A DNA stretch of 31,151 nucleotides, taken from IMG/VR virus record IMGVR_UViG_3300045934_000099, positions 1 to 31,151 of that record; one strand, 5' to 3'. A model generated the notes under the pieces. That model saw only the letters and a program-made list of their open reading frames with translations. It ran no database searches and was not told the origin of the DNA. This stretch comes from a virus. The stretch's first letter is position 1. The number at the start of each line of letters is the position of its first letter. The translations under genes were made by a program, and so were the position numbers. This document shows positions 1,420 to 24,946 of the stretch, piece after piece.

Positions 1420-1920
1420 GTGGCGCCGTCGCCCCAGCACCGTCCGGTCATTCTCCCGAATCTCGCTAAGTACTTGATTGAACTGAGGAACCTGAAAACG
1501 TGGAATCAATCACAGGCCGCCAACATTGCGCGGCGGAAGCGCCTGCCCGTGACCTACACGGCCATCAGGTGGATCGAGGAAGGGAAAAATCAGAACCCTG
1601 ATCCGGAGTTACTCCGCGGCCTGGCGAGTTTGTATGACACGACGTACGAGGACCTCGCGAGTCGGTTTCTCGTCGAGCGTTATGGAATTGACCTTCTCCG
1701 TCACGACGGCGTTGAACGATCGACGGCCTCACAGGGAGGTACCGCCGATGTCCCAGCTTCGGCTCGTCGCATCGCAGGACTCGAACAAGAACTCGAAGAT
1801 CTCAAAGCTAAATGGGGTGAAGTTCAAGCCCTTGCGAAGTCGCTCTTTGACGTTGCCGTCCGTGGCCGAGAAGGCCGCGCGGTTGCACGCACTCAGACCA
1901 GTCGCCGCCGAACTCGTTGA
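1420..1920 (+). CDS. XRE-family phage repressor (CI-like, no peptidase domain; 166 aa)
   Basis: First gene of the rightward lysogeny operon. Residues of about 11-80 form an XRE helix-turn-helix domain (LAKYLIELRNLKTWNQSQAA through TAIRWIEEGKN to LLRGLASLYDTTYEDLASRF). Residues of about 105-140 form a probable coiled coil (RIAGLEQELEDLKAKWGEVQ) that could give dimerisation. There is no S24 peptidase domain, so induction would not be by LexA-type self-cleavage. The GTG at 1420 is chosen because the upstream extension (to 1249) crosses the control region and the divergent gene. No Shine-Dalgarno precedes it, so a leaderless transcript, as for lambda cI from its maintenance promoter, is plausible. 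The last 173 bp overlap a second gene in another frame. Confidence 0.75.
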   Translation: MAPSPQHRPVILPNLAKYLIELRNLKTWNQSQAANIARRKRLPVTYTAIRWIEEGKNQNPDPELLRGLASLYDTTYEDLASRFLVERYGIDLLRHDGVERSTASQGGTADVPASARRIAGLEQELEDLKAKWGEVQALAKSLFDVAVRGREGRAVARTQTSRRRTR

Positions 1921-1957
1921 AGAACTTATAAATGATTTATTGAAGGAGGTTTCGTGA
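1748..1957 (+). CDS. Small protein overlapping the repressor C terminus out of frame (69 aa)
   Basis: A 69-aa reading frame beginning with ATG at 1748, preceded at 7 nt by AGGGAGGT, a near-perfect Shine-Dalgarno, although this lies inside the repressor gene. It is read in the +1 frame relative to the repressor over 173 bp and continues 37 bp beyond it; its TGA overlaps the ATG of the secreted protein (TGATG). The product is basic in the middle and ends in an amphipathic helix (LRPVAAELVEELINDLLKEV). No family is recognised. Both overlapping frames look protein-like, so this is probably a true nested gene pair; a repressor/overlap frameshift fusion is a less likely alternative. Confidence 0.6.
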   Translation: MSQLRLVASQDSNKNSKISKLNGVKFKPLRSRSLTLPSVAEKAARLHALRPVAAELVEELINDLLKEVS

Positions 1958-2457
1958 TGCGACTCCCCCGACTCGCCATGGTCGCTGGCGTGGTCCTGAT
2001 TGCCACCGACGTCTCCGCCCAGAATCTCATCATCGTTTTGAGGGTCGGGCCGACGATGGCCTCTTTTGGCGAGCCGCTCAACGGGAACGTGACGATCACG
2101 TTGCGCTCTGGCACGCGTATCACGGTGCCACTCAGTGACATCGACTTGGAACTTACGAAGAGCACGCAGACGTTTTCTAGGTCCACCGGTAAGGACGACA
2201 CGGAGTCCTCGTCTGACGCGACCGCGCAGATCAACGCCCAATGCGCCAAGATGTTCGAAACGAACTTCACGATGCAGGCCGCGTGTCGTACGCAGCAACA
2301 GGATGCCTATCGAGCTCTCACGGCCCGACAGATGGCGAGCGGAGATCGTGCGACCATTCGACGGGAATGCCTCAAGATGTTCCCACAAAATTTCACGATG
2401 CGGAACGCCTGTGAGCAGCAGCAACTCGACGCGCTCAAGACGCTCGGACGTGAGTAG
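1957..2457 (+). CDS. Secreted protein with duplicated Cys-repeat module; candidate lysogenic-conversion factor
   Basis: A 166-aa protein with a signal peptide (RLAMVAGVVLIATDVSA, predicted cut after residue 21 before Gln-Asn), so periplasmic or secreted. Residues of about 22-70 are beta-rich (VTITLRSGTRITVPLSDIDL); residues of about 70-90 are a Ser/Thr/Asp linker. Two copies of a roughly 30-residue module follow: C96-KMF-NFTM-AC110-QQ-DA and C138-KMF-NFTM-AC152-QQ-DA, 42 residues apart, each with two Cys that could pair. Start: ATG at 1957, six bases after AAGGAGGT; GTG at 1954 is an alternative. It lies between repressor and integrase with 1-bp overlaps on both sides and so is likely expressed in the lysogen. 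A function in superinfection exclusion or host fitness is inference. Confidence 0.7.
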   Translation: MRLPRLAMVAGVVLIATDVSAQNLIIVLRVGPTMASFGEPLNGNVTITLRSGTRITVPLSDIDLELTKSTQTFSRSTGKDDTESSSDATAQINAQCAKMFETNFTMQAACRTQQQDAYRALTARQMASGDRATIRRECLKMFPQNFTMRNACEQQQLDALKTLGRE

Positions 2458-3734
2458 TGACCACGTTCAGACACCCGCGTGGCAAGACGTTTCGCTACGA
2501 CTTCTGGTGGGACGGCCGCCGTCACACCGGCACGACGGGGCAGCTGTCAAAGCAAGACGCGGACATCGTCGAAGGGAAGATCATGGAGCGCGTGCGCCAG
2601 GACGCGCACGGCATCGCGCCCTTCGATCGCACGCAGACGCCGAGCTTTTCCTCCTGGGCCTTCGAGCATCTGAAGTACGTCCGGAAGAAGGGGAGGGTGC
2701 GACGGCTCGACGTCGTCCAAGACACGCTGCGCCTCGTGCTGCAGTTTTTCGGCAAGCGTCCGGCGACACTCCCGGACCCGACGAAGGCGAAGCCGCAGTG
2801 GCGCAAGTCCGTCGCCGCCGCTCGCGCGCGCGCCGAGTCGGCGCCGTATCACGACCTCCGGCTCGCAGATCCGATCACGCATCCGGACTGGATCGAACGC
2901 TTCGAAGACTGGATGACGTCGCTGACGTTGAGCGGCCCGCGGAAGAATCACTATCGCAGCGCGATGAGCATGATGTACCGCACCGCGCTCCTGCCGGCGT
3001 TCCGCGCAAAGACGAAGGTCAGCGTGAATCCGTTTCGCGACATTGAGCGCGACGTCGTGCCGGAGCGTGATGCCGTACTGACGGTGGAGCAGCTGCGCGC
3101 CTGGATCGCCGCCGCGGCGCCGCACGCGCGCCTGGCGATGGCGATCGCCGTCTACGCCCCAGAGCTCCGGCTGGAGTCGATCCTCGATCTGCAGTGGAAG
3201 GTGCACCTCAATCCCGAGTTGACACGGATCGTCGTGAAACGGCATAAGACGGCCGCGGCGACGCAACGGCCGCAGATCATCCCGGTGTCGCCGGAGCTCC
3301 ACGAGATCCTGACGTGGGCGAGGAAGACGCATCCTCGCCGCAAGTATGTCGTCGCCTATTTCGGCGAGCGCGTGCACCGTCTCGAAACGACGCTCAGCGC
3401 CGCGGCGACGCGTGCCAGTGCCACGCTCCCCAAGGCGCACCGGTTTCACTACGGCGTGAAGCGCGGCGTGACGTTCCACTCGATCCGGCACTCGATGGCC
3501 ACGATGCTGGCCGAGTGGGGCGAAGGCGACGCGGTCCGACAACTCGTGATGGGACACCTGTCACCAGCGACCACGAAGAAGTACACGCACCTCGCCGCGC
3601 TCGCGAAAACCGCACCCCTCGAGCGGCTCGGATCGAAGGTGCAATTAGTGGACGCTGTACAGGGAAAAGTACAGGACCACGCCGCGAAAACCCGCGCGAA
3701 CCCGAACAAATCCGGGGCCCAGCTACGTGCGTAA
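2457..3734 (+). CDS. int: Tyrosine integrase (425 aa)
   Basis: Site-specific recombinase that would integrate the phage at the tRNA-Lys site beside it. The N terminus (about 1-60) resembles an arm-binding domain, residues of about 60-200 the core-binding helical domain, and about 205-390 the catalytic domain. All catalytic positions are visible: R238 (ELRLESILDL), K264 (VKRHKT), H341-x-x-R344 (HSIRHS), H367 (VMGHLS) and nucleophile Y376 (TKKYTHL). The GTG start shares one base with the stop of the secreted-protein gene, completing a four-gene rightward operon. The C-terminal 50 residues are low complexity because the DNA there also carries two arm-type repeats of attP (GTACAGGGA). Full length, no lesion. 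Confidence 0.95.
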   Translation: MTTFRHPRGKTFRYDFWWDGRRHTGTTGQLSKQDADIVEGKIMERVRQDAHGIAPFDRTQTPSFSSWAFEHLKYVRKKGRVRRLDVVQDTLRLVLQFFGKRPATLPDPTKAKPQWRKSVAAARARAESAPYHDLRLADPITHPDWIERFEDWMTSLTLSGPRKNHYRSAMSMMYRTALLPAFRAKTKVSVNPFRDIERDVVPERDAVLTVEQLRAWIAAAAPHARLAMAIAVYAPELRLESILDLQWKVHLNPELTRIVVKRHKTAAATQRPQIIPVSPELHEILTWARKTHPRRKYVVAYFGERVHRLETTLSAAATRASATLPKAHRFHYGVKRGVTFHSIRHSMATMLAEWGEGDAVRQLVMGHLSPATTKKYTHLAALAKTAPLERLGSKVQLVDAVQGKVQDHAAKTRANPNKSGAQLRA

Positions 3735-4662: not shown

Positions 4663-6272
4663 TTCCTGTCGTGCGCATCTCGTGTGAGCCAAAAGATCCC
4701 AGCGAGCAGCGACAGTGCCACCGCGGCATACGACCCGTAGAACGTGACAGCGATCAGGTCCGTCACTCGAGCGACGATGCCTGGCGGCGCCGTTCCGCCG
4801 GTCGCGTTCTCGACGTCCATCCCCTGCCCGTGCCAGGTCGCCTTCGACATTGTCTGATTGAGCCAGAGGAAATCGCCGCCGCGGGTATAGCCGTTGTTCG
4901 TGTAGCGGTTGTTCGCCTGCGGCCTGAAGGCGTCGAGGTTCGCGCTATCGATCACCCCAGTACGCCCGGTGCCGGCGGCCGGCTCGGTCGTGTAGGTGAT
5001 CACATTACCGTGCACCAGCAGATTGATCAGCGTCCACGGTCCGTACTCGCCGGCGCCCCGATGATCGTTGAGTCCGGTGATCCCCTGGAAGTTGTCCTCG
5101 AGCGTGTTCTCGTAGACCTCGACGTTCCGCGAGCTCGTGACCTCGATGCCCGCACTCGTCGTCCACCACGGGTAGTCGCGCGACAGGCCGTTCCGCTTGA
5201 GCGTGTTCTTCCGAATGACGGCGTCGTAGCTGATCTCGTGAAAGATGCCTGATCGCGCGTTCTCGAAGGCGACGTTCTGCTCGTAGAGCGTGCCGATGTT
5301 ATTGATGTCCGTCCAGAGGCCTGGCCCGTCGTTGTGATGGGATCGGTTGTTCCGGACGATCAGATTCGTCGTCCACACCCATTTCGATCCGCCGGCGCCC
5401 CAGTAGGAGTTATAGCCGCAGGTCCCATCCGAGCCGTTTGCGCTCCACCTCGTGACCGTCGCGCCCGCGGCGATGTTGTTGTACGCGATCTCGTTGCCCT
5501 CGATCAGAATGTCCGACCCTGCGCCGGTGAACCCGAACCCGCAGTTATGGTGCACGAGGTTATTGATCGCCGACGTCCTCGAGTCGGTGCCGATGCCGCC
5601 GCCGTGATTCCACCGGACGATCGAATTCCGCACTGACCAGTCGACGCCGCCAGACGCCGACGCGCCGATGCTGAGTGCACTCGTCCCACTCGCCGCCGCG
5701 TATTTCTCGACGATCAGCCGGTCGACTGTGACGCGCGACGCCGCGCTCAGGTGGAAGAGATTCGGCGTCACGCTCGTCTCGACGACGCGGCCCGATGGAT
5801 CGTCGCCGACGTAGATCCGATCGGCCGCGTAGTCGAAGAACCACGTCCCGGCGCCCACCTGCCCGCGCGAGGCGACGTGTTTCTTCATCACGTTATCGAA
5901 GAACAGATCCTCGGGGTAGTCGCACCGCGGATGCGTCGACCAGCAGACGCCGCCGAGGCGTTGTCCTTGCTGCGTCTGCCCGGTGACGAACCACGCGCTC
6001 CCGTCACGCTGCCAGCCGTCGAGGACCTTCGCGCCGGAGACGATCGCGAGCAGGATGCCGCCCTGCGTCTCACCGAGGAAGGTGTCCCCGGTACGCGCCG
6101 TGATCTGCTGCATCCGATGGACGCCGGCCTTGATCACGAACGTCGAGCCCGCCGGCGCCTTGTTGATGATCGGCTGCCACGCCTGCCCCGGCGGGATCTC
6201 GACCATCGTCTGTGCGTATGCGGACACAGGGAGCAGCGACAGCAGACCCGCGATCAGTAGTCGACGCATCAT
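4659..6272 (-). CDS. Membrane-anchored right-handed parallel beta-helix protein (537 aa)
   Basis: A 537-aa protein with an N-terminal signal peptide (RRLLIAGLLSLLPVSAYA, cut after about residue 20, before Gln) and a C-terminal membrane helix (about 511-530, YGSYAAVALSLLAGIFWL) ending in a charged tail. Between them lies a right-handed parallel beta-helix of the pectate-lyase/NosD type, shown by many short coils such as NLVHHNCGFGF, ILIEGNEIAYNN, LIVRNNRSHHNDGPG, AVIRKNTLKRNG and VEVYENTLEDN. ATG at 6272 follows AAGGGG. It should be exported and stay anchored by its C terminus, unlike virion tailspikes, which lack signal peptides. A carbohydrate-binding or polysaccharide-cleaving activity is possible; no catalytic residues are identified. 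It sits at the end of the tail-fibre block. Confidence 0.7.
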   Translation of the reverse strand: MMRRLLIAGLLSLLPVSAYAQTMVEIPPGQAWQPIINKAPAGSTFVIKAGVHRMQQITARTGDTFLGETQGGILLAIVSGAKVLDGWQRDGSAWFVTGQTQQGQRLGGVCWSTHPRCDYPEDLFFDNVMKKHVASRGQVGAGTWFFDYAADRIYVGDDPSGRVVETSVTPNLFHLSAASRVTVDRLIVEKYAAASGTSALSIGASASGGVDWSVRNSIVRWNHGGGIGTDSRTSAINNLVHHNCGFGFTGAGSDILIEGNEIAYNNIAAGATVTRWSANGSDGTCGYNSYWGAGGSKWVWTTNLIVRNNRSHHNDGPGLWTDINNIGTLYEQNVAFENARSGIFHEISYDAVIRKNTLKRNGLSRDYPWWTTSAGIEVTSSRNVEVYENTLEDNFQGITGLNDHRGAGEYGPWTLINLLVHGNVITYTTEPAAGTGRTGVIDSANLDAFRPQANNRYTNNGYTRGGDFLWLNQTMSKATWHGQGMDVENATGGTAPPGIVARVTDLIAVTFYGSYAAVALSLLAGIFWLTRDAHDRK

Positions 6273-7912: not shown

Positions 7913-8866
7913 CTACGTCCGCTCCACCGTCAACTGCAGCTCGAAGAACTCGATCCCCGAGCAGGAGAGGACATTGATCGAGAAGCGATCCCCGCCGGCG
8001 ACCGACACGTCCGCCCAGTCGCCGAGGTTCGTGTCCTCGGCCTCGTCGTCGGCGATCAGCGCCGGGTTATTCCCAGACGTGACCGAGGCGCCGTTCTTCC
8101 GGACGTTGACCTCGAGACTCCCGGCCACCGGCGACCGCAGGTTCCAGGCCGTGATCGTGCCGTCGTAGGTGTCGATCGGGATCAGGGCCGTGTAGTTCTT
8201 GACGCCGGTCGTGACGTCCGTGCCCTGTCCGTCGGCCGTGAACTTGATCGGGTAGAGCGTGCCCGAGATGGACCCGCCAGGACTGCCGCCGCCGGCCGGT
8301 CCCCAGGTCCCGTCGCCGTGCAGGACGTCATCGGGATCGCCGCTGTAGCCCCCGAGCTGCGTAATGTCGATTTCGTCGTCGCCGCCTTCCTCGTGCGTCT
8401 CGGCGTGCGGGGGAAGGTCGCCGGGACTGGCCCCGGCCCCGGTCTCGGCCTCGAGCGTGTCGAGCGTCACGTAGGGATTCGACGCGCTCGGCGTCCCGGT
8501 CCCGACGAGCGCCGCCTTCTGGTCGTCCGTCGGCCGATTCGCGTCGGCGTGGCGATGATCGCCGCGGGAGTATGCCGTCGAGGCGCCGGCGACGCCGGTC
8601 CCATCGAGCGCCGCGACCGTGTCCGACGGCGTGCCGGGCGTGCCCTCGAGTTGATTCGAGCCGTTGATCGTGATCGTGACGCCGTCGACCCGCACGGCGA
8701 GGGGATCGCCGTCGGTGCCGTCGCCGTCGAGCGCCCCGGCTGCGTCGACCGCGGTCGGGAAGAACATCTCCTCCAGCTGGTCGATCAACTCGATCACCCT
8801 GCGCCGCAGCATCAGGATTTCGTGCAGCCGAACCCGGAAGCGCCCCTCGGGCCCCGTCTGTGCCAT
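7913..8866 (-). CDS. Tail fibre protein (317 aa)
   Basis: A 317-aa fibre. The N-terminal helix (LHEILMLRRRVIELIDQLEE) probably attaches and trimerises at the tail tip. The middle has two hallmarks of phage fibres: GVAGASTAYSRGDHRHAD and a HAETHEEGGDDEIDITQLGG stretch. The C-terminal domain (about 210-317) is a beta-sandwich with LEVNVRKNGASVT, matching the modules in the next gene. The ATG overlaps the stop of the tail-tip gene by one base (TGATG). It is virion-associated, with receptor binding inferred. Late-operon expression. Confidence 0.75.
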   Translation of the reverse strand: MAQTGPEGRFRVRLHEILMLRRRVIELIDQLEEMFFPTAVDAAGALDGDGTDGDPLAVRVDGVTITINGSNQLEGTPGTPSDTVAALDGTGVAGASTAYSRGDHRHADANRPTDDQKAALVGTGTPSASNPYVTLDTLEAETGAGASPGDLPPHAETHEEGGDDEIDITQLGGYSGDPDDVLHGDGTWGPAGGGSPGGSISGTLYPIKFTADGQGTDVTTGVKNYTALIPIDTYDGTITAWNLRSPVAGSLEVNVRKNGASVTSGNNPALIADDEAEDTNLGDWADVSVAGGDRFSINVLSCSGIEFFELQLTVERT

Positions 8867-18154: not shown

Positions 18155-18371
18155 CCGCCTCGACCTCGTTCCCTGAATCCTTCGCGCCGCCATTGATGAA
18201 CAGTCGGAACGTCGCCGTCCCGTTCGGTTGCTCGTAGACCTGCCCCTGGTCCTCGATCCGGTGCATCCCTTCCTCGAACACGAACGAGACCGTTTTCCCG
18301 AGGGCCGCCTTCTCGAGGCCCTCCGCGATCTTTTTGATCGTTGACTTGTCACAGCGCTCGACCGTGATCAC
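18135..18371 (-). CDS. Small head-tail region protein, function unknown (78 aa)
   Basis: A 78-aa protein, GTG start at 18371 overlapping the adaptor stop by three bases with GGGAGAA upstream. It begins ITVERCDKSTIKKIAEGLEK and has a beta-strand segment KTVSFVFEEGMHRIEDQGQV, then GTATFRLFING. The C terminus is polar and overlaps the gp10-like gene by 20 bp. No family is recognised; position within the head-tail joining genes suggests an accessory of neck assembly. Confidence 0.6.
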   Translation of the reverse strand: MITVERCDKSTIKKIAEGLEKAALGKTVSFVFEEGMHRIEDQGQVYEQPNGTATFRLFINGGAKDSGNEVEADGHSSV

Positions 18372-18745
18372 CCCATTCTCCCGATCGTCAGATATTCCAC
18401 GCCGTGATGCATGCCGATCAGCGACGCGGCGATGATGTCGTAGGTCCGGCCGGCGAAGACGAAGCGCCGTTCCTTCACGATGTTGATCCGCTCCGGATCC
18501 ATGTCCGTCCGGTAGTGCCCCTCGAAGCGTGTCTGGAACGGCGCCGACGCTTGCCCGGCTTCTACTTTGATGTACCCGCTGATGTCTTGCTTCGAGCACC
18601 AGTAGATGTCGATCAACGTCTCCCAGGCTTCCGTCGGGAATCCGGAGTCCTCCGTCGCGTCGGTGACAAACTGCACGAGCACCGGACGATCGCGCCGCCC
18701 GGATCCCGCCGCCTTCGGGTTATACGGCGTGTTCCAGGTAGGCAT
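18368..18745 (-). CDS. Head-tail adaptor / stopper, phage H-T join family (125 aa)
   Basis: A 125-aa protein with the pattern of the HK97 gp9 / SPP1 gp16 head-tail adaptors: RDRPVLVQFVTDATEDSGFP, EAWETLIDIYWCSKQDISGY, then TDMDPERINIVKERRFVFAG and TYDIIAASLIGMHHGVEYLT. It closes the portal channel and receives the tail. ATG at 18745 lies three bases after GGAGGCGGG. The start overlaps the terminal 26 bp of the first cassette gene, so the carbohydrate cassette is fused seamlessly into the head-completion operon. Confidence 0.82.
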   Translation of the reverse strand: MPTWNTPYNPKAAGSGRRDRPVLVQFVTDATEDSGFPTEAWETLIDIYWCSKQDISGYIKVEAGQASAPFQTRFEGHYRTDMDPERINIVKERRFVFAGRTYDIIAASLIGMHHGVEYLTIGRMG

Positions 18746-19460
18746 CCCGCCTCCAATGTGCCCGCACCCACGGCAGCGCCTGCGCCTGCGACGACCACGG
18801 ATCGATCGCGCCGTGAAACACGACGACGCGCGCATTCGACGGCAGCACGTTCCGCCGTTTCTGGATCCAGTTTCGGAAGCTATAGACGCCGTCTTCGCGC
18901 GTCCACTTCGCCTCGCCCCTCCCGAGGCGATAGGAGATCCAGCCCTGATCCGATCCCCAACACTTTGCCAGGAGCGACCGCCGCGGCGACGACGCCGGAT
19001 CGAAGTCGGTCCACACCTGCGGACGGCTGCCGGTCGTGAGCAGCATCATCGAGCCGTTGTAGTGGCTGCCCGGCTGCGGATTCGTGTCGCCCCAGAAGAC
19101 GACGTCTTCCGTCCGATTCCAGAGCGGGGACAGGTCTCGGCAGATCACGAGGTCGAGGTCGAGCGACACGACCCGATCGCCGAACCACTGCGCCGCGTCC
19201 GGATGAAACAGACGGAGGCGCCGGTAGCAGCTCGGGTGCTTCCCGCCGTGCGGACTGGGCACCGTCGCGAAGTCGTTCCACGCTGGCAGGATCTCGATGT
19301 CGGGATCGATGCCGACGGCGTCGTCGGTGACGCACACGAACCGGTGCGGGTGCGAGTAGTGGCGACGCACCATCGCGCGCAGGACGTTCACCGTCTCCGG
19401 CCCGAACGTCGAGCGGTAGCCCGTCCGCGGCGCCCATTTCCAGCAGACGACCGTCAGCAC
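18720..19460 (-). CDS. Phage glycosyltransferase, GT-A fold (GT8-like; 246 aa)
   Basis: A 246-aa predicted glycosyltransferase: VVCWKWAPRTGY near the N terminus, HRFVCVTDD (40-47), PSCYRRLRLFHPDAAQWFGD, and the metal/nucleotide-binding DLD in VVSLDLDLVICRDLSPLW (101-103). It continues HYNGSMMLLTTGSRPQVWTD and WISYRLGRGE. This is the common phage GT-A family, resembling GT8, that probably transfers a sugar from a nucleotide donor. GTG at 19460 overlaps the upstream glycosyltransferase stop by seven bases. It is last in the seven-gene cassette and ends inside the adaptor gene. The acceptor (capsid, tail or host glycan) is unknown. Confidence 0.75.
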   Translation of the reverse strand: MLTVVCWKWAPRTGYRSTFGPETVNVLRAMVRRHYSHPHRFVCVTDDAVGIDPDIEILPAWNDFATVPSPHGGKHPSCYRRLRLFHPDAAQWFGDRVVSLDLDLVICRDLSPLWNRTEDVVFWGDTNPQPGSHYNGSMMLLTTGSRPQVWTDFDPASSPRRSLLAKCWGSDQGWISYRLGRGEAKWTREDGVYSFRNWIQKRRNVLPSNARVVVFHGAIDPWSSQAQALPWVRAHWRRDAYLEHAV

Positions 19461-20197
19461 GCCTGCGGCACCTCGACCGGCGGGAGGACCGTCACCTGAT
19501 GCGACCACGGGAACGTCAGCCGGAGCGGCCGCCACTCTTTGAGCGCCCCGCGCTCGGCGCGGATCTTCGCGACGTTGACCTTGTCGCCTTGTTCCTTCCG
19601 GCCGTAGGTCGTCGTCGACGCGTCCGCGATCACGTCGCGCGGCACACGGATCAGCGGCTCCGGCAGCATCTCGACGCGCGCCGTCGCCTGCACGCGATCG
19701 CGGAATTCGCCGTCGGTCCCGTAGTAGCCCGAGAACCGCTCGTCGTAGCCGCCGATCGCGTCGAACATGCCGCGTGTCAGCAGCCACGAATTCGGATGCG
19801 GTTTGTACGGCGTCGCGTATGGCGCGTCGACTCGCGAGAACCGGTAGACCGTCGCCGGGTCGAGCTCGCCGTAGACCAGGCGTCGCAGCGTCCCTTCCGG
19901 CAGCAGGTGATCGATGTCGGTGAGCAGGACCCATGACGTGCGCGCCTGGTCGACCCCGAGGTTCCGACAGGCGAGCCAGTTCCACCGGACGTCGACCTCG
20001 ATCCGATACAGGCGGAACGAGGCGATCCCGGTCGGCTCGATGCACTTCTTCGCGACGTGCTCCGGCGATCCGTCGTCGACGACGATCGCGTGGAACCGCG
20101 ATTTGAGATCGCACGGATACGCGCGCCAGGTCCGAAAGTGCTCGAGCAGCATCCCGGCATTCCTGTAGTACGGCAGGATCAGCGTGAGCTCCCTCAT
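19454..20197 (-). CDS. GT2-type glycosyltransferase (247 aa)
   Basis: A 247-aa family-2-like glycosyltransferase. ILPYYRNAGMLLEHFRTW begins the Rossmann-like half; the donor-binding motif is VVDDGSPEH (D41-D42). NWLACRNLG (74-81) and LLTDIDHLLP (TDIDH 93-97, the metal-binding D-x-D) follow. GGYDERFSGYYGTDGEF (about 147-163) holds the typical acceptor/catalytic acidic cluster. No membrane segment is present, so it is cytoplasmic. ATG at 20197 overlaps the methyltransferase-like stop by four bases. A role in building a glycan with its neighbours is inferred. Confidence 0.82.
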   Translation of the reverse strand: MRELTLILPYYRNAGMLLEHFRTWRAYPCDLKSRFHAIVVDDGSPEHVAKKCIEPTGIASFRLYRIEVDVRWNWLACRNLGVDQARTSWVLLTDIDHLLPEGTLRRLVYGELDPATVYRFSRVDAPYATPYKPHPNSWLLTRGMFDAIGGYDERFSGYYGTDGEFRDRVQATARVEMLPEPLIRVPRDVIADASTTTYGRKEQGDKVNVAKIRAERGALKEWRPLRLTFPWSHQVTVLPPVEVPQAC

Positions 20198-20742
20198 GCC
20201 GCCCTCCGCACCCAGACGCCGATCCCGGGCCCGTCCGGATACTTGCTCGCGTACGGTTCGATCACTGGGAGGTCGAGCGCCCGCCCATAGGTCGCCCGGA
20301 ACCCTTCGGCGTGGCTATGAAAGTCCGCGCCACACGAGGCGTCGAGATCGTGCACGCCGACGACGGCGACGTGCGGATACATGAAGGCTGCGTCCTTCAG
20401 CGCGATCGCGATCGCGTCCTTCGGTCCATCGATCAGCAACCCGATCGTCTGACGCCGGGCTTCGGCGAGCACCCGCGGCAGGATCTCTTGGACGTCGCCG
20501 GCGATGAAGTGCACGCGCTCCGGCGCCTCGATCTCGAAGTCCCGGTCGATCGAGATCACCGGCCCGCCGAACGTCGCGGCGAGCAGGCGCGTCGACATGC
20601 CGTACTTGACGCCCGACTCCACGACCAGCGTCACCCCGGCATTGAGACAGCACGACAGGAAGAGATAGATCTCGGAATACCAGACGCCCTTCCGGACGTA
20701 GGGGATCGTGTGCGCACGCACGGCGAAGGCCTCGGCCGTCAT
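20194..20742 (-). CDS. Class I SAM-dependent methyltransferase-like protein (182 aa)
   Basis: A 182-aa Rossmann protein with VVESGVKYGMSTRLLAATFG (42-51 as the glycine-loop motif I), followed by VISIDRDFE (the acidic residue expected to bind SAM ribose). Then come FIAGDVQEILPRVL and LLIDGPKDAIAIALKDAAFM, the class I order, and VGVHDLD. This most resembles methyltransferases acting on sugars (CmcI/Methyltransf_24-like), but the catalytic substrate side is unknown and it may be an inactive relative. ATG at 20742 overlaps the GT-D gene stop by four bases. Methylation of a phage-borne sugar is the contextual inference. Confidence 0.65.
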   Translation of the reverse strand: MTAEAFAVRAHTIPYVRKGVWYSEIYLFLSCCLNAGVTLVVESGVKYGMSTRLLAATFGGPVISIDRDFEIEAPERVHFIAGDVQEILPRVLAEARRQTIGLLIDGPKDAIAIALKDAAFMYPHVAVVGVHDLDASCGADFHSHAEGFRATYGRALDLPVIEPYASKYPDGPGIGVWVRRAA

Positions 20743-21461
20743 GCCGTCGCCACCTTCGTAAAGCCGTCCGGCTGCCGAATGTCCTTCGGGAGCCACATCG
20801 GCTCGCCGCGACGATGCTTGCGGAGGAACCCGCCGATGTGCCCGAGGTCGACCGCGTGCACGCCCTTCGCGCACAGATCGTTCGCGATCACGGTCGCCGT
20901 CGCACCAAGGCAGATCAGGACGCGCGCCGTCGGGACGCCGATCTCGTCCATCAGCCGCGGGTACTCCGTCCACGCGTGCTGTTCAGGCCCGATCACCTCT
21001 CGGATACGTGTCGCGCCGACGAGGTCCGTCGGCCGGAGCGACTTATCACTGCCGCGGACGAGGACGATGTCCCGCCCGACCCAGAGCGTCTCGAGCAGCG
21101 CCCAATAGTCTGGCGTGTTGATCCACGGCGCCGAGTCCGGCCGCGTGATGAACGAGCTCGCGTACGCACGCCCCGGCCGCAGGAGTCGGCAGCCGCGCTC
21201 GAGATGCTTGTTCCATCCGGTCCGCTTCGGCGTCTCGATGCTCGGGTGAATGTTCGGCACGCCGACGAGGCAGTCGCCAGAGTCGAAGAGGATCTGCCGC
21301 AGACGCGTACTCAGCGCCGGATCGTGCGTCTGCGTCTTCATCGCATAGCCGGCCGCCATCGCGAACTCGCCGTCGCCGTAGCGCGCGATCGACTGACCCG
21401 CACAGATCGCCTGCAGCGTCTCGAGCTCGCCGAGGACGTGTGGATACGCTGACGCCTTCAC
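20739..21461 (-). CDS. GT-D / DUF1792-type glycosyltransferase (240 aa)
   Basis: A 240-aa protein with the signature of the DUF1792 glycosyltransferase fold (GT-D): SIARYGDGEFAM at residues 24-35, where the D-x-E binds metal and donor. Next are LSTRLRQILFDSGDCLVGVP and VLVRGSDKSLRPTDL, then VLICLGATATVIANDLCAKG in the second lobe, where the family has a conserved Gly-rich loop. Members of this fold are known to add glucose to bacterial glycoproteins. GTG at 21461 overlaps the upstream gene by four bases. Cytoplasmic. Confidence 0.8.
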   Translation of the reverse strand: MKASAYPHVLGELETLQAICAGQSIARYGDGEFAMAAGYAMKTQTHDPALSTRLRQILFDSGDCLVGVPNIHPSIETPKRTGWNKHLERGCRLLRPGRAYASSFITRPDSAPWINTPDYWALLETLWVGRDIVLVRGSDKSLRPTDLVGATRIREVIGPEQHAWTEYPRLMDEIGVPTARVLICLGATATVIANDLCAKGVHAVDLGHIGGFLRKHRRGEPMWLPKDIRQPDGFTKVATA

Positions 21462-22138
21462 GCGGCCCCCCACGCTGGCACCGAGCGGCCGCGCCAGTTC
21501 TCCCATCCGGCCTGCGGACCGAGATGCAGCAGCGACAGCCCCTCGAAGTAGTCCCACCGCTTGCGGTAATAGAGCTCGATGAAGTTCGTGTCGTACTTGC
21601 CGGCGGTCGGATAGGAGCCGAACCGGCGACCTTTCACCCAGCGCCAGGCGTTGAAGTAGCCGACCGGCCGCCCGCCCGAGTTCTTCATCCGCGGAAACCG
21701 ATCGAGCGAGCCGTCCGCCTGGAATGTGGTGAAGTCCTTCGCCGTCAGGCAGTGATACCGCCACGCCCCGTACAGGATCGTCGGGAGAATGTGCTTGTCC
21801 TGCGGCCACGCGCCGACCGGGTAGCAGTCGACATTGATGTTCACGACGACTTCCCCGTATTCGGGCGGGTCGATCAGTTCATCCACCAACCCGAGACAGA
21901 CATCCATCCCGTACGCCGCGTTGAAGGTCGGAGTCCCGCCGACGTGACACGTCTCGTCGAGCCGCGTCCACGCGTCGGTGACGATGGGCGTCACCCCGTG
22001 CGCGACCGCGAGCTCGATCGAGGGATCGCCAGGCGCCGTGGCGACCGACAGCGTCCCCGGAGGCAGGATCGCCTTCCACGCCGGCAGCGTCACCGCCAGG
22101 AAATCGGCGTAGTTGACCGACACGATGATCGCCCTCAC
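21458..22138 (-). CDS. Glycosyltransferase-like protein (226 aa)
   Basis: A 226-aa GT-A-like protein: IIVSVNYADFLAVTLPAW opens the nucleotide-binding half, IELAVAHGVTPIVTDAWTRL and FNAAYGMDVCLGLVDELI follow, then VVVNINVDCYPVG (about 98-109) at the place where GT-A enzymes have D-x-D. The C-terminal third (YDTNFIELYYRKRWDYFEGL) has many aromatics. No canonical D-x-D is present, so activity is not certain. GTG at 22138 overlaps the radical SAM stop (GTGA). Cytoplasmic, part of the cassette. Confidence 0.6.
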   Translation of the reverse strand: MRAIIVSVNYADFLAVTLPAWKAILPPGTLSVATAPGDPSIELAVAHGVTPIVTDAWTRLDETCHVGGTPTFNAAYGMDVCLGLVDELIDPPEYGEVVVNINVDCYPVGAWPQDKHILPTILYGAWRYHCLTAKDFTTFQADGSLDRFPRMKNSGGRPVGYFNAWRWVKGRRFGSYPTAGKYDTNFIELYYRKRWDYFEGLSLLHLGPQAGWENWRGRSVPAWGAA

Positions 22139-23205
22139 ACGAAGGCCTCGTGTGCGCGCGGCGCGTAGACCTGCGACAACTGCTGATTCATCAGGTGCAG
22201 GCGACACATCACGCGGCAGTCGGAGAGGTCCGTCCGCTGCCCGGGATGCCGCGCCCAGATGTCGGCGAACGACTCCGTCCGCAGATCGCCGAGCAGCGAG
22301 TCCGGGATGCCGCGCCGTTGCGGACACAGCCAGACGCGGCCGTCCGGCGTGATCGTCGCGTTGAACCGCACGCCGTAGCAGGTCGAATACGTCCGGCCGT
22401 TCCAGTCCAGATACTCCATGAACCGCTCGACGTCGCACTCGACGTCTGGTTCTTTGGCGATCGCGACGAGCGTCTCGAAGGCCTCGGCGATCCACGACCG
22501 GTCGCCGGTGCACGTCGCCGGCGCGTCGGGGGAGGTCTCGATCGTCGGCCGGAGCGTCGTATACGTCGCGCCGAGCTGCCGCGCCAGATAGACCATCGTC
22601 TCGGCCTTGCGCCAGTTGCCCGCGTGCAGCAGGAACGACACGCCGACCGTCGTCAGCTTCGGCTCGGCGAGCCACCGGATCCCGTCGACCGCTCGCCAGA
22701 AGCGATCCGTCGGGACGCCTTTCTCGTGGTGATAGGTGACCGGATCGGCACAGTCGAGGGAGACCACGACCCAGGTCGCCGCCTCGGCGAGTGTGCGCGC
22801 CGACTCCGGACGCAAGAGACCGCCGAGCGTGTACATGCCTTGCTCGAGGCCCAGGCTCGCCGCGTGTTGCACGATCTCCGGCCACTGGCTATGTGTGGTC
22901 GGCTCGCCGCCGCCGGTCCACACGACGCCCCTGACGCCGGCCGCGGCCATCTGCTCGAGCGCGCGACGGACGAGCGTCGTGTCCGCGTAGTCGCCGACGT
23001 CCTCGAACGCCATCGGGAGACGGCGATCGCGCATCACCCAGGGCCCGCGCGTATGGGTATGGGCGAAGTGACAGGACTGGCAGCCGAGGACGCACCGATT
23101 CGAGAGATCCCACTCGACGGTCACCGGCGCCGCCTTCTGGCCGTGCTGCCAGGCCGCCATCCGGTCGAGATGCGAGAACACCTTCGACGGCGTGATGAAC
23201 CTCAC
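22135..23205 (-). CDS. Radical SAM protein with C-terminal Cys cluster (SPASM/twitch-like; 356 aa)
   Basis: A 356-aa radical SAM enzyme. The iron-sulphur motif is C38-VLG-C42-QS-C45 followed by His; the SAM-binding loop is WTGGGEPTTH (96-105); further barrel strands include VVVSLDC (146-152) and VGVSFLLHAGN (187-197). A second Cys set, C276, C294, C330 and C334 (TCYGVRFNATITPDGRVWLC and DLSDCRVMC), looks like a SPASM or twitch auxiliary cluster, typical of enzymes that modify peptides or sugars. GTG start at 23205, four-base overlap with the DUF115-like gene. It is the only redox enzyme of the cassette and could make an unusual sugar or alter a peptide acceptor; the substrate is unknown. Confidence 0.88.
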   Translation of the reverse strand: MRFITPSKVFSHLDRMAAWQHGQKAAPVTVEWDLSNRCVLGCQSCHFAHTHTRGPWVMRDRRLPMAFEDVGDYADTTLVRRALEQMAAAGVRGVVWTGGGEPTTHSQWPEIVQHAASLGLEQGMYTLGGLLRPESARTLAEAATWVVVSLDCADPVTYHHEKGVPTDRFWRAVDGIRWLAEPKLTTVGVSFLLHAGNWRKAETMVYLARQLGATYTTLRPTIETSPDAPATCTGDRSWIAEAFETLVAIAKEPDVECDVERFMEYLDWNGRTYSTCYGVRFNATITPDGRVWLCPQRRGIPDSLLGDLRTESFADIWARHPGQRTDLSDCRVMCRLHLMNQQLSQVYAPRAHEAFV

Positions 23206-23831
23206 GCGGCCGCGACCTCGACGCGGAGCGCTTCCTCGAGCGGCAGCAACGGGAAACAGACGAGCGCGGTCTTCCGGGTGCAGTTGACGATCTCGATCCC
23301 GCGCGCCTGCAATGGCTCGACGAGCGTCGCGAACGCGCGCAGACAGGACGCAAACGGCGCCCCGGTGCGATCCGGATGCTCGCCGAAGAAGTGCTGCCGG
23401 CCGCCGCTCATGTCGTAGCCGAGCAGGATGATCCGCCGCGCCCCTTTGTGCACGGCCAGATTGATCGCCTGGTAACCGCTGTTCCGCCCCGTCCGGAGGC
23501 CGGTCGGATTCGTCTCGAGGCCGTTCGCGCCGGTGTTCCGCAGGATCTTGACGCCCGGCCACCGCGCCGACGGCCTCTGCATCGCCCACTTTTCGCCGGC
23601 GAAGGCCTGCGCGCCATCGTGCCACCTCCACCACTTCGCGTCGCACGCATAGAGCGCGTCTGCCCACGGCGCGAGACGGTACGCGTCATTCACCGCGATC
23701 ACCTTCGCGCGTCCGCGGACGGCGTCGACGTCGGCCTGCGTCAGGCTTGGACCGCTGCCGATGCACACGACCGTCGATCCCGGCCAGTCTCGCTCGACGC
23801 GCGCCGCTCGAGGAACGATGGGCGCCTTCAT
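23202..23831 (-). CDS. DUF115/Maf-like sugar-related protein (209 aa)
   Basis: A 209-aa protein with TVVCIGSGPSLTQADVDAVR at the N terminus (GSGPSL 25-30), then KVIAVNDAYRLAPWADALYA and CDAKWW. Later NSGYQAINLAVHKGARRIIL and LGYDMSG follow. This layout matches DUF115/MptE-like proteins, which include the motility-accessory Maf proteins that transfer nonulosonic acids to flagellin, but phage members are mostly uncharacterised. ATG at 23831 overlaps the connector stop, making it the first cassette gene after the head-tail connector. Glycosyl transfer is inferred, not shown. Confidence 0.65.
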   Translation of the reverse strand: MKAPIVPRAARVERDWPGSTVVCIGSGPSLTQADVDAVRGRAKVIAVNDAYRLAPWADALYACDAKWWRWHDGAQAFAGEKWAMQRPSARWPGVKILRNTGANGLETNPTGLRTGRNSGYQAINLAVHKGARRIILLGYDMSGGRQHFFGEHPDRTGAPFASCLRAFATLVEPLQARGIEIVNCTRKTALVCFPLLPLEEALRVEVAAA

Positions 23832-24172
23832 GCGATCGTCGGATCCCGCATTCCGGACAGCAGGAGCACGATGTCAGGCGTCAGCGGACCTTCGACGGCG
23901 CCAGGCGTCTGCGCATCGTCGCCGCGGAACTTCCACAGGTTCCCGAGCACCTTCAAGATCGCCGCGGACGCGAGCGCGTATTCCGGATCCGTCGCCGGAT
24001 CCGTGTCCTCGCTCCAATCGGCATACTCATGCCGTTTGATGTGCATGAGGACGATCGCTGTCGCCTGGTGGAGCTTCAACTGCACGTCCGACTCGTAGGG
24101 ATTCGGCGAGCCGTCCCCGTCGAGGTTCAGGTGCAGATGCGCCATCGCGGTGTCGAGTGACACGATCGCCAT
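23828..24172 (-). CDS. Head-tail connector protein, HK97 gp6-like (114 aa)
   Basis: A 114-aa helical protein of the phage connector type: SLDTAMAHLHLNLDGDGSPN, then VQLKLHQATAIVLMHIKRHE, then PEYALASAAILKVLGNLWKF. This is the usual early-region alpha-helical head-tail connector that forms a ring below the portal. The ATG at 24172 abuts the stop of the collagen-like gene, and its stop overlaps the first cassette gene. In most HK97-like phages the next gene would be the adaptor; here the seven-gene sugar cassette is interposed. Confidence 0.8.
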   Translation of the reverse strand: MAIVSLDTAMAHLHLNLDGDGSPNPYESDVQLKLHQATAIVLMHIKRHEYADWSEDTDPATDPEYALASAAILKVLGNLWKFRGDDAQTPGAVEGPLTPDIVLLLSGMRDPTIA

Positions 24173-24946
24173 TTAGTACCCCTTCGGACCTCGCTCGCCC
24201 TGGTCGCCCTTCGGCCCGCGATCGCCCGTCTCGCCCTTCGCGCCGCGCTCGCCCTGCCGGCCACGCTGCGAGGACAACTGCCAACACCGCGAGGCCTCGA
24301 GCCGTTGTCCGGGCTTGATCCCCTTGCTCGCCGCGAGCGCCGTCCACGTCGACCCGCCGTCGCTCACCTGATCGCCGCGCTCGTACGGCGTCTCATTCGT
24401 CCAGACGCCGCGGTAAATCGTCACCGGGAAGACGACCGTGACTTCCTTCACGCGCTCGCCCCTCATGTACCGGTGCGTCAGCGTTCGCTCGCCGTCGTAC
24501 ACGACGTCCAGGTCATCGAACCCGAGCCCGTCTTCGCCGCGGTCGCCGGTGTCGCCCTTCTCGCCCCGATCGCCTCGCTCACCTCGATCACCCTGCGGAC
24601 CTCTGTCCCCGACAGGCCCCGTCACGCCGGGCAACCCGTCTCGGCCGGCGATCCCTTGATCGCCTTTCTCGCCTCGGTCGCCTCGATCGCCGGTGTCGCC
24701 CTTGATCCCTTGATCGCCTCTTTCCCCTTGCACCCCTGGATCGCCTTTGCCGCCCGTCTCGCCTCGTTCTCCGGGCGGTCCCGGCGGCCCAGGCGGCCCC
24801 GGCACCGGCGCGACGGCCTTCAATTCCGAGATCGCGTTCGTCAGGATCGCGATCTTCGTGTCTCGTATCGCGATCTCTGCGGCGACATATTCCCGAATGA
24901 CTGGCGCGATCGCTCTGATCACCGCGGCCCGATCCTCGGACGTCAT
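24173..24946 (-). CDS. Collagen-like fibre protein with carbohydrate-binding-like insert (257 aa)
   Basis: A 257-aa protein in the portal-connector gap. Residues of about 1-47 form a helix likely to nucleate a trimer (VREYVAAEIAI-like; DTKIAILTNAISELK). Residues 50-142 are uninterrupted Gly-X-Y collagen-like repeats (GPPGPPGPPGERGETGGKGD is typical). Residues of about 143-227 are a globular insert whose VTIYRGVWTNETPYERGDQV plus GGSTWTAL and CWQL match small chitin/cellulose-binding modules. Residues 229-257 return to Gly-X-Y repeats. ATG overlaps the portal stop by four bases. Such proteins are usually fibres; here it might be a head or neck fibre that binds surface glycans. Confidence 0.8.
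   Translation of the reverse strand: MTSEDRAAVIRAIAPVIREYVAAEIAIRDTKIAILTNAISELKAVAPVPGPPGPPGPPGERGETGGKGDPGVQGERGDQGIKGDTGDRGDRGEKGDQGIAGRDGLPGVTGPVGDRGPQGDRGERGDRGEKGDTGDRGEDGLGFDDLDVVYDGERTLTHRYMRGERVKEVTVVFPVTIYRGVWTNETPYERGDQVSDGGSTWTALAASKGIKPGQRLEASRCWQLSSQRGRQGERGAKGETGDRGPKGDQGERGPKGY

Follow-up and report, generated by a model that had tools for sequence, protein, structure and literature searches.

What is a block of sugar-handling genes doing within the head-completion operon of a phage? The question is raised by the IMG/VR virus record IMGVR_UViG_3300045934_000099 (the window, i.e. the whole analysed stretch of 31,151 bases), in which seven genes, G1 to G7, occupy positions 18720-23831 of the minus strand between a gp6-like adaptor gene and a head-completion gene. 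The cassette suggests that a special sugar coat is built for the phage's own particle. The reading preferred here, at a probability of roughly 55%, is that of a modular glycosylation cassette carried by the phage: its enzymes would assemble a short, unusual glycan and link it to a virion protein, and its genes would be co-expressed with those for head completion. Glycosylation of phage virions is already known, with reports from some cultured phages; the new element is a phage-side family of radical S-adenosylmethionine (radical SAM) enzymes, represented in the window by G2.

The cassette and its flanking genes all lie on the minus strand, in the order terminase, fused protease-capsid protein, portal, collagen-like protein, gp6-like adaptor, the seven cassette genes, head-completion gene, gp10-like gene and tail genes; the names of the capsid, portal and tail genes are presumed, partly from matches to PAJU2. 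The genes concerned are, in this order:

24173-24946, minus strand: collagen-like protein, context gene (PF01391 4e-20; CBM_5_12 0.036, below cut-off)
23828-24172, minus strand: gp6-like head-tail adaptor (Ad1), flanking gene (PHROG 40, 5.8e-5)
23202-23831, minus strand: G1, DUF115/MptE-like protein (PHROG 4603, 'alpha-2,3-sialyltransferase', 5.4e-48)
22135-23205, minus strand: G2, radical SAM enzyme with SPASM-like C-terminus (Radical_SAM 2.8e-14, SPASM 1.7e-6, both over cut-off)
21458-22138, minus strand: G3, orphan protein (no family hit within the limits applied to Pfam, PHROGs and NCBIfam)
20739-21461, minus strand: G4, GT-D (former DUF1792) glycosyltransferase (PF08759 1.9e-28)
20194-20742, minus strand: G5, methyltransferase-like protein (PF13578 Methyltransf_24 2.1e-3, below cut-off)
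19454-20197, minus strand: G6, family-2 glycosyltransferase (PF10111 1.6e-9, PF00535 1e-7, both over cut-off)
18720-19460, minus strand: G7, GT8-like glycosyltransferase (PHROG 1962, 'glycosyltransferase', 2.2e-11)
18368-18745, minus strand: head-completion / head-closure protein Hc1, flanking gene (PF05521 Phage_HCP 5.4e-11, over cut-off; PHROG 25, head closure)

Overlaps of 4 bp are present at six junctions (23828-23831, 23202-23205, 22135-22138, 21458-21461, 20739-20742 and 20194-20197), G6 and G7 overlap by 7 bp (19454-19460, with a GTG start of G7), and G7 runs 26 bp into the head-completion gene (18720-18745). An earlier note, made from the letters of the window, had described seven such genes in this interval with overlaps of 4-7 bp, and is borne out in all of this; the 26-bp overlap is not in its list. 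Its view that the head-completion operon houses a set of genes most of which are carbohydrate-active is likewise supported. The gene types that it named hold, with uneven support: G3 has no family hit, and G5 and the DUF115 protein remain below the Pfam cut-offs. With a GC content of about 66-70%, the cassette does not depart from the values seen elsewhere in the window (58-70%), so composition shows no sign of a recent foreign origin, and a foreign island was set aside on this count.

G2 exceeds the cut-offs of PF04055 (54.1 bits, cut-off 29.5) and of the SPASM model PF13186 (28.6 bits, cut-off 21.5). Its CxxxCxxC motif consists of C38, C42 and C45, and four further Cys are found towards the C-terminus (C276, C294, C330 and C334). 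When 41 chosen full-length sequences are aligned, all seven are invariant, and the enzyme probably carries one auxiliary cluster. PHROGs yielded nothing useful for G2 (best E 0.029), and the sequence search against solved structures gave weak matches only (BlsE 7e-4, PqqE 2.6e-3).

Relatives of G2 were found 113 times in viral contigs, and the best 80 of these were used. Among them, 45 phage loci carry a family member of at least 35% identity, with the window and its sister phage L005, near-identical across much of the locus, counted separately (44 loci if merged). This count leaves out near-identical loci (L002, L003, L004, L007-L011, L035, L039, L040, L047, L049, L060, L065, L067, L075 and L081) and re-fetched copies, cellular and annotated-record loci (L015, L020, L096-L101), and loci in which the gene caller did not place the enzyme (L041, L045, L078). 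A glycosyltransferase (GT), taken as a gene of a family whose representatives match a glycosyltransferase model of Pfam or PHROGs, lies at most three genes from G2 in 39 of the 45 loci, and any GT-like gene is present in 43. Each of the 45 has a GT-like, DUF115, methyltransferase, epimerase or second radical SAM gene near G2, and in the related cassette of L011 a NAD-epimerase is confirmed by Pfam (4.7e-56). GTs account for 62 of 248 genes within three positions of G2 vs 4 of 198 genes more than six positions away (p = 2e-13), in a comparison that favours near over far, as the GT families were partly defined from genes near G2, and in which the genes are not independent.

Structural genes recur beside the enzyme as well. 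Custom hidden Markov models (HMMs) detect one within six genes of G2 in 30/45 loci; from the other 15, ten proteins of ten loci were tested, eight of which match PHROGs for head, packaging or connector proteins (one weakly, and one encoded seven genes away from G2). The family is situated between Neck1/gp10 and the major tail protein in eight of the 45 loci, and beside capsid or adaptor genes elsewhere. Phage-encoded glycosyltransferases are linked to virion genes, which is one mark of a virion glycosylation system. The 13 viral loci below 35% identity (two of which, L089 and L095, overlap) were counted separately; a GT is present in one of them and a structural gene, according to the custom HMMs, in none.

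A profile of 31 phage members found no member of the family in 599 cellular genomes of two phyla, with scoring confined to each genome's top 5 or 10 candidates and soil hosts possibly poorly represented. The highest score was 165.6 bits among the 398 genomes of one phylum, and 172.4 bits among the 201 of the other; called cellular proteins reach 188 bits (archaeal contig L096), the phage family of at least 35% identity 377-559 bits. Eight of the 19 places matched in the 398 genomes were turned into loci; in L288 and L101 no relative was called that could be examined. A scan of the genomes of 84,980 species, which requires a short peptide pattern and can miss relatives, returned six relatives, all of at most 29% identity. 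As far as these searches extend, the family appears to be viral and not cellular.

Eight of the eleven distinct cellular relatives with called neighbours adjoin nucleotide-sugar, transketolase or carbamoyltransferase genes. The neighbours are RmlD, epimerase, GT2 and RmlC in L099 and L100, RmlC in L098, transketolase halves in L282, L284 and L285, and NodU-type carbamoyltransferases in L097 and L286; five of these eight sets are named by Pfam, those of L100, L282 and L285 by 67-92% identity to the proteins so named. The predicted structure of G2 is confident (predicted local distance difference test, pLDDT, 93.6; predicted template modelling score, pTM, 0.92), and its best match in VIA-align is BlsE (Z 25.0, root-mean-square deviation, rmsd, 3.4, 292 aligned), with DesII at Z 23.6 (rmsd 4.0, 326 aligned). 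BlsE and DesII are radical SAM enzymes that act on sugars, to which G2 is alike in fold at only 16% and 14% identity, respectively. The margin by which the predicted fold favours sugar enzymes over peptide maturases is small. A sugar is favoured as the substrate of G2, mainly because of the sugar-type neighbours of the cellular relatives and less because of this small margin. What had been left as 'glycan or peptide' in the earlier note is narrowed towards the sugar, with the peptide retained as a rival.

The region that holds the cassette is optional. A panel of loci with related capsids was drawn from IMG/VR with a capsid alignment, independent of the cassette; of its best 80 loci, 66 have a portal gene and 25 are readable from the portal to the gp10/tail genes. 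Among the latter, 13 are filled with cassette-type genes and 12 are empty; a DUF115 gene is also present in 12 unreadable loci. When the slot of these 12 was searched in six frames with 14 cassette families, nothing was detected. In 11 of them the genes for adaptor, head closure and gp10 are grouped, accompanied by no more than a single unassigned gene (113-127 amino acids); L279, counted as empty, has three unassigned genes in the slot. L226 and L236 have 3.6 kb of near-identical DNA in common. The flanking genes had been taken for normally adjacent, a claim for which these 25 loci are the test. Absence of the block from all related phages, which the earlier note had named as grounds for rejecting its proposal, is not the case. 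In some of the filled loci the cassette follows the head-closure gene instead of preceding it.

An alignment search with the DUF115 protein gave 588 relatives, of which the best 80 were used. Among 51 newly retrieved distinct groups, the DUF115 gene has a GT-type gene nearby in 39 and a portal or collagen-like one in 45; the second radical SAM cluster is represented in five and the G2 family in none. Loci retrieved before are not part of these 51 groups, and several such loci have the G2-family enzyme in a DUF115 cassette. Gene order and composition are reshuffled between loci, with small recurring sets, e.g. G3-GTD and GT2-GT8. The observation is real and out of the ordinary, and it is part of a wider pattern. 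The block of the window is not unique: reshuffled cassettes of this sort are many, frequently have DUF115 as their first gene, and occur in the same or neighbouring places in many phages. The radical SAM step, called unusual in such a cassette by the earlier note, is absent from all 51 DUF115 groups, though several previously retrieved DUF115 cassettes carry the enzyme and its family is present in 45 loci.

The remaining cassette genes differ in how closely they can be named. G1 scores 27.3 bits with the Pfam model MptE-like/DUF115 (PF01973), under the cut-off of 34.6, and the sequence search against solved structures yielded no meaningful match for it; relatives are found in the head regions of D3 (39% identity), PAJU2 (36%) and P7 (32%). 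It is likely a glycosyltransferase, and often the first gene of such cassettes. G3 has a weak model (pLDDT 54.6), and its Foldseek matches are mostly GT-A enzymes (best E 2.8e-3, none at or below 0.001). A GT-A-fold glycosyltransferase is possible from these matches, and naming the protein from its structure was abandoned because the model is too weak. G4 passes PF08759 (100.2 bits, cut-off 27) and reaches 7.5e-29 with TIGR03728, under the cut-off of that model, and G7 matches Pfam GT8 at E = 0.28 only.

In the mechanism proposed, G2 would dehydrogenate, deaminate, epimerise or decarboxylate a sugar, probably a nucleotide sugar or one that has already been attached. The GT-D, GT2 and GT8-like enzymes, and perhaps G3, would transfer sugars in turn, and the methyltransferase-like G5 may decorate the glycan. 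DUF115-like G1 may make the first protein-sugar link, by analogy with Maf. Each of these chemical steps, like the co-expression with the head-completion genes, we infer. The virion is favoured as the target because of the position of the cassette and its overlaps with the head-completion genes. Of the glycan or peptide system for the virion proposed in the earlier note, the carbohydrate block in a morphogenesis operon stands, and attachment to the virion is suggested by position. More tentatively, and as a conjecture that we hold with some doubt, tailed phages may keep a radical SAM family of their own, absent from cells, that makes a radical-modified sugar for the virion and moves between GT cassettes at assembly genes, re-dressing the particle. 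The pattern suggests that a swappable system of this kind is widespread among environmental tailed phages, and with it a phage-side radical enzyme family. If confirmed, it would offer new sugar-modifying chemistry, a sequence marker for glycosylated phage particles and a way to ask why particles need a glycan.

Several results weigh against a virion glycan made in this way. Support for the glycan is indirect; the assignments of G3 and G5 are weakly supported, and the GT count near G2 carries the bias given above. Three of the eleven cellular relatives (L096, L283, L287) are without the sugar-type neighbours in the stretch covered. Every NCBIfam equivalog matched by G2 remains far under its cut-off, including the curated BlsE model TIGR04466 (26.8 bits, cut-off 400). 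The collagen-like neighbour was rejected as a candidate acceptor of the glycan: its relatives are present in 25/25 panel loci, with or without a cassette, and repeat length is independent of the cassette (p = 0.52). Finally, the peptide maturases follow closely in the structural comparison, with SkfB (Z 23.2, rmsd 3.6, 289 aligned) tied with DesII, SuiB at Z 21.4 and anSME at Z 20.5, and SuiB is the top Foldseek match of G2.

These last values suit an alternative in which G2 modifies a virion polypeptide, leaving a cross-link or a dehydrogenated or epimerised residue on which the GTs then build. Enzymes of the SPASM type are frequent modifiers of peptides, and the eight loci with Neck1/gp10 on one side and the major tail protein on the other would agree with such a substrate. 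However, BlsE heads the list of Z scores, 8/11 cellular relatives stand beside nucleotide-sugar, transketolase or carbamoyltransferase genes, and G2 has four C-terminal Cys, not the longer set of sactipeptide maturases. The cassette has no gap able to hold a separate precursor-peptide gene, though a virion protein could itself be the substrate. A peptide substrate is unlikely on balance, if still a serious proposal. Rather unlikely, too, is a cassette that remodels the host envelope (lipopolysaccharide, LPS, or capsule) late in infection or during lysogeny and blocks rival phages, with the virion not its target. O-antigen is often changed by phage GTs, but no flippase, polymerase or GtrA/GtrB match was found among the seven proteins with Pfam, and none has more than one hydrophobic window of at least 1.6, a weak test that did not discriminate, since a protein of this phage that is probably membrane-bound also escaped it. 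The 4-bp overlap with head-completion genes and the position of relatives near morphogenesis genes in most loci are also at odds with an envelope function. A precedent for it weighs against the virion as well: pelagimyophages have GTs near the tail fibres, where radical SAM cassettes are gained too, and the accessible part of the source reads these regions as host LPS modification (PMC7029224). Their clusters resemble the window in combining GTs among structural genes with added radical SAM cassettes, but belong to myophages and lie near tail fibres.

That the seven are accessory genes parked in a permissive insertion site, without a common product, would suit an optional region whose composition varies greatly between loci. 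It is nevertheless improbable, as nearly all identified gene types are glycan-related, the partnership of G2 with GTs is strong, and the subsets G3-GTD and GT2-GT8 are repeatedly found as units. DNA hypermodification also involves GTs and radical SAM enzymes of phages, a subject reportedly treated by Pyle in 2024 (as cited in PMC12619734), so that the GTs might modify bases of the phage DNA. Such a role is very improbable: a gene of the thymidylate synthase family is present in none of 13 records (which may be fragments), a near-identical longer record included, the 29 other proteins of that longer record match ten Pfam families, none for DNA base modification, and the cassette sits in a morphogenesis operon.

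The preferred reading, a glycosylation cassette for the virion, has its closest counterpart in T. viridis virus S20 (Tetraselmis viridis, NC_020840), with DUF115-like, GT-D, annotated methyltransferase, GT2 and GT8-like genes before head closure Hc1. Identities to the window are 34-36% for the DUF115-like protein, 48% for GT-D (G4), 49% for GT2 (G6) and 53% for the GT8-like protein (G7), the gene of which immediately precedes head closure in S20. The 18-kb stretch of S20 that was read contains no match to the window's radical SAM gene, and no functional test of the S20 block was found. D3 (orf7), PAJU2 (gp10) and P7 (hdmB, annotated 'head morphogenesis') have a DUF115-like gene in the head-completion/head-morphogenesis region, as in the window, but with one or few partners only and no radical SAM gene annotated in the stretches read. 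The podovirus ctQWt234 (MW202801) has a radical SAM gene (29% identity) and GTs between the capsid and phage stabilisation genes, with PhyH, methyltransferase and NodB-like annotations and no DUF115 or GT-D match; its radical SAM protein reaches only 204 bits with the G2-family profile.

In mycobacteriophages (Che8 and relatives), phage GTs are reported to glycosylate capsid and tail proteins (Freeman 2023, as cited in the accessible parts of PMC11256854 and PMC12619734). Radical SAM enzymes are not mentioned in the part of that literature available, and the GT genes of Maravista lie near the 3' genome end (PMC11256854). Among phage genes enriched in the Tasman Sea, the available part of one source includes radical SAM and glycosyltransferase genes (PMC7150976). 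No description of radical SAM enzymes in virion-glycosylation cassettes was found in the accessible portion of the open-access literature.

Several further features of the radical SAM loci were observed. A second radical SAM gene lies within three genes of G2 in seven of the 45 loci (L056, L057, L058, L059, L062, L064 and L068); that of L068, the one tested, is similar to enzymes of the B12-binding type, with matches to the HpnJ and BchE models that stay below cut-off. L088-L095 form a distant viral radical SAM group (~20% identity) with a gene that looks by eye like a glycosyltransferase and a transketolase/E1-like gene (in L091, Pfam E1_dh 1.8e-20), an arrangement somewhat like that of some cellular relatives. 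Just past the Cys motif, an insertion of 8-9 nucleotides with an in-frame stop is present in L056 (~5990-6005) and L077 (~8133-8145), and contig L076 starts exactly at this insertion point.

Directly ahead of the third Cys of CxxxCxxC, an in-frame intein interrupts the enzymes of L005 (9113-10006) and L053 (6777-8006; the enzyme is 55% identical). The L005 allele is also found in L004. Intein_splicing matches L005 at 3.6e-10, over cut-off, and L053 at 1.1e-7, below it. Radical SAM enzymes with inteins are not unheard of, as NCBIfam has such a family (NF038136). Inside each intein, the frame of which is open, a second long frame runs out of register (L005 9387-9971, plus strand; L053 6799-7941, plus strand). 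These second frames have no significant Pfam or NCBIfam match; with a CxCGC finger and repeated 'NPM' motifs they look homing endonuclease-like, and it would be unusual for an endonuclease to share its DNA with an intein read in a different frame.

The collagen-like protein of the window clusters with PAJU2 gp07, which is without the long repeats. In the sister phage L005 the capsid is 100% and the portal and major tail protein are 99% identical to those of the window, whereas its large terminase (1672-3261) is quite different (26-29% in pieces), a sharp module swap.

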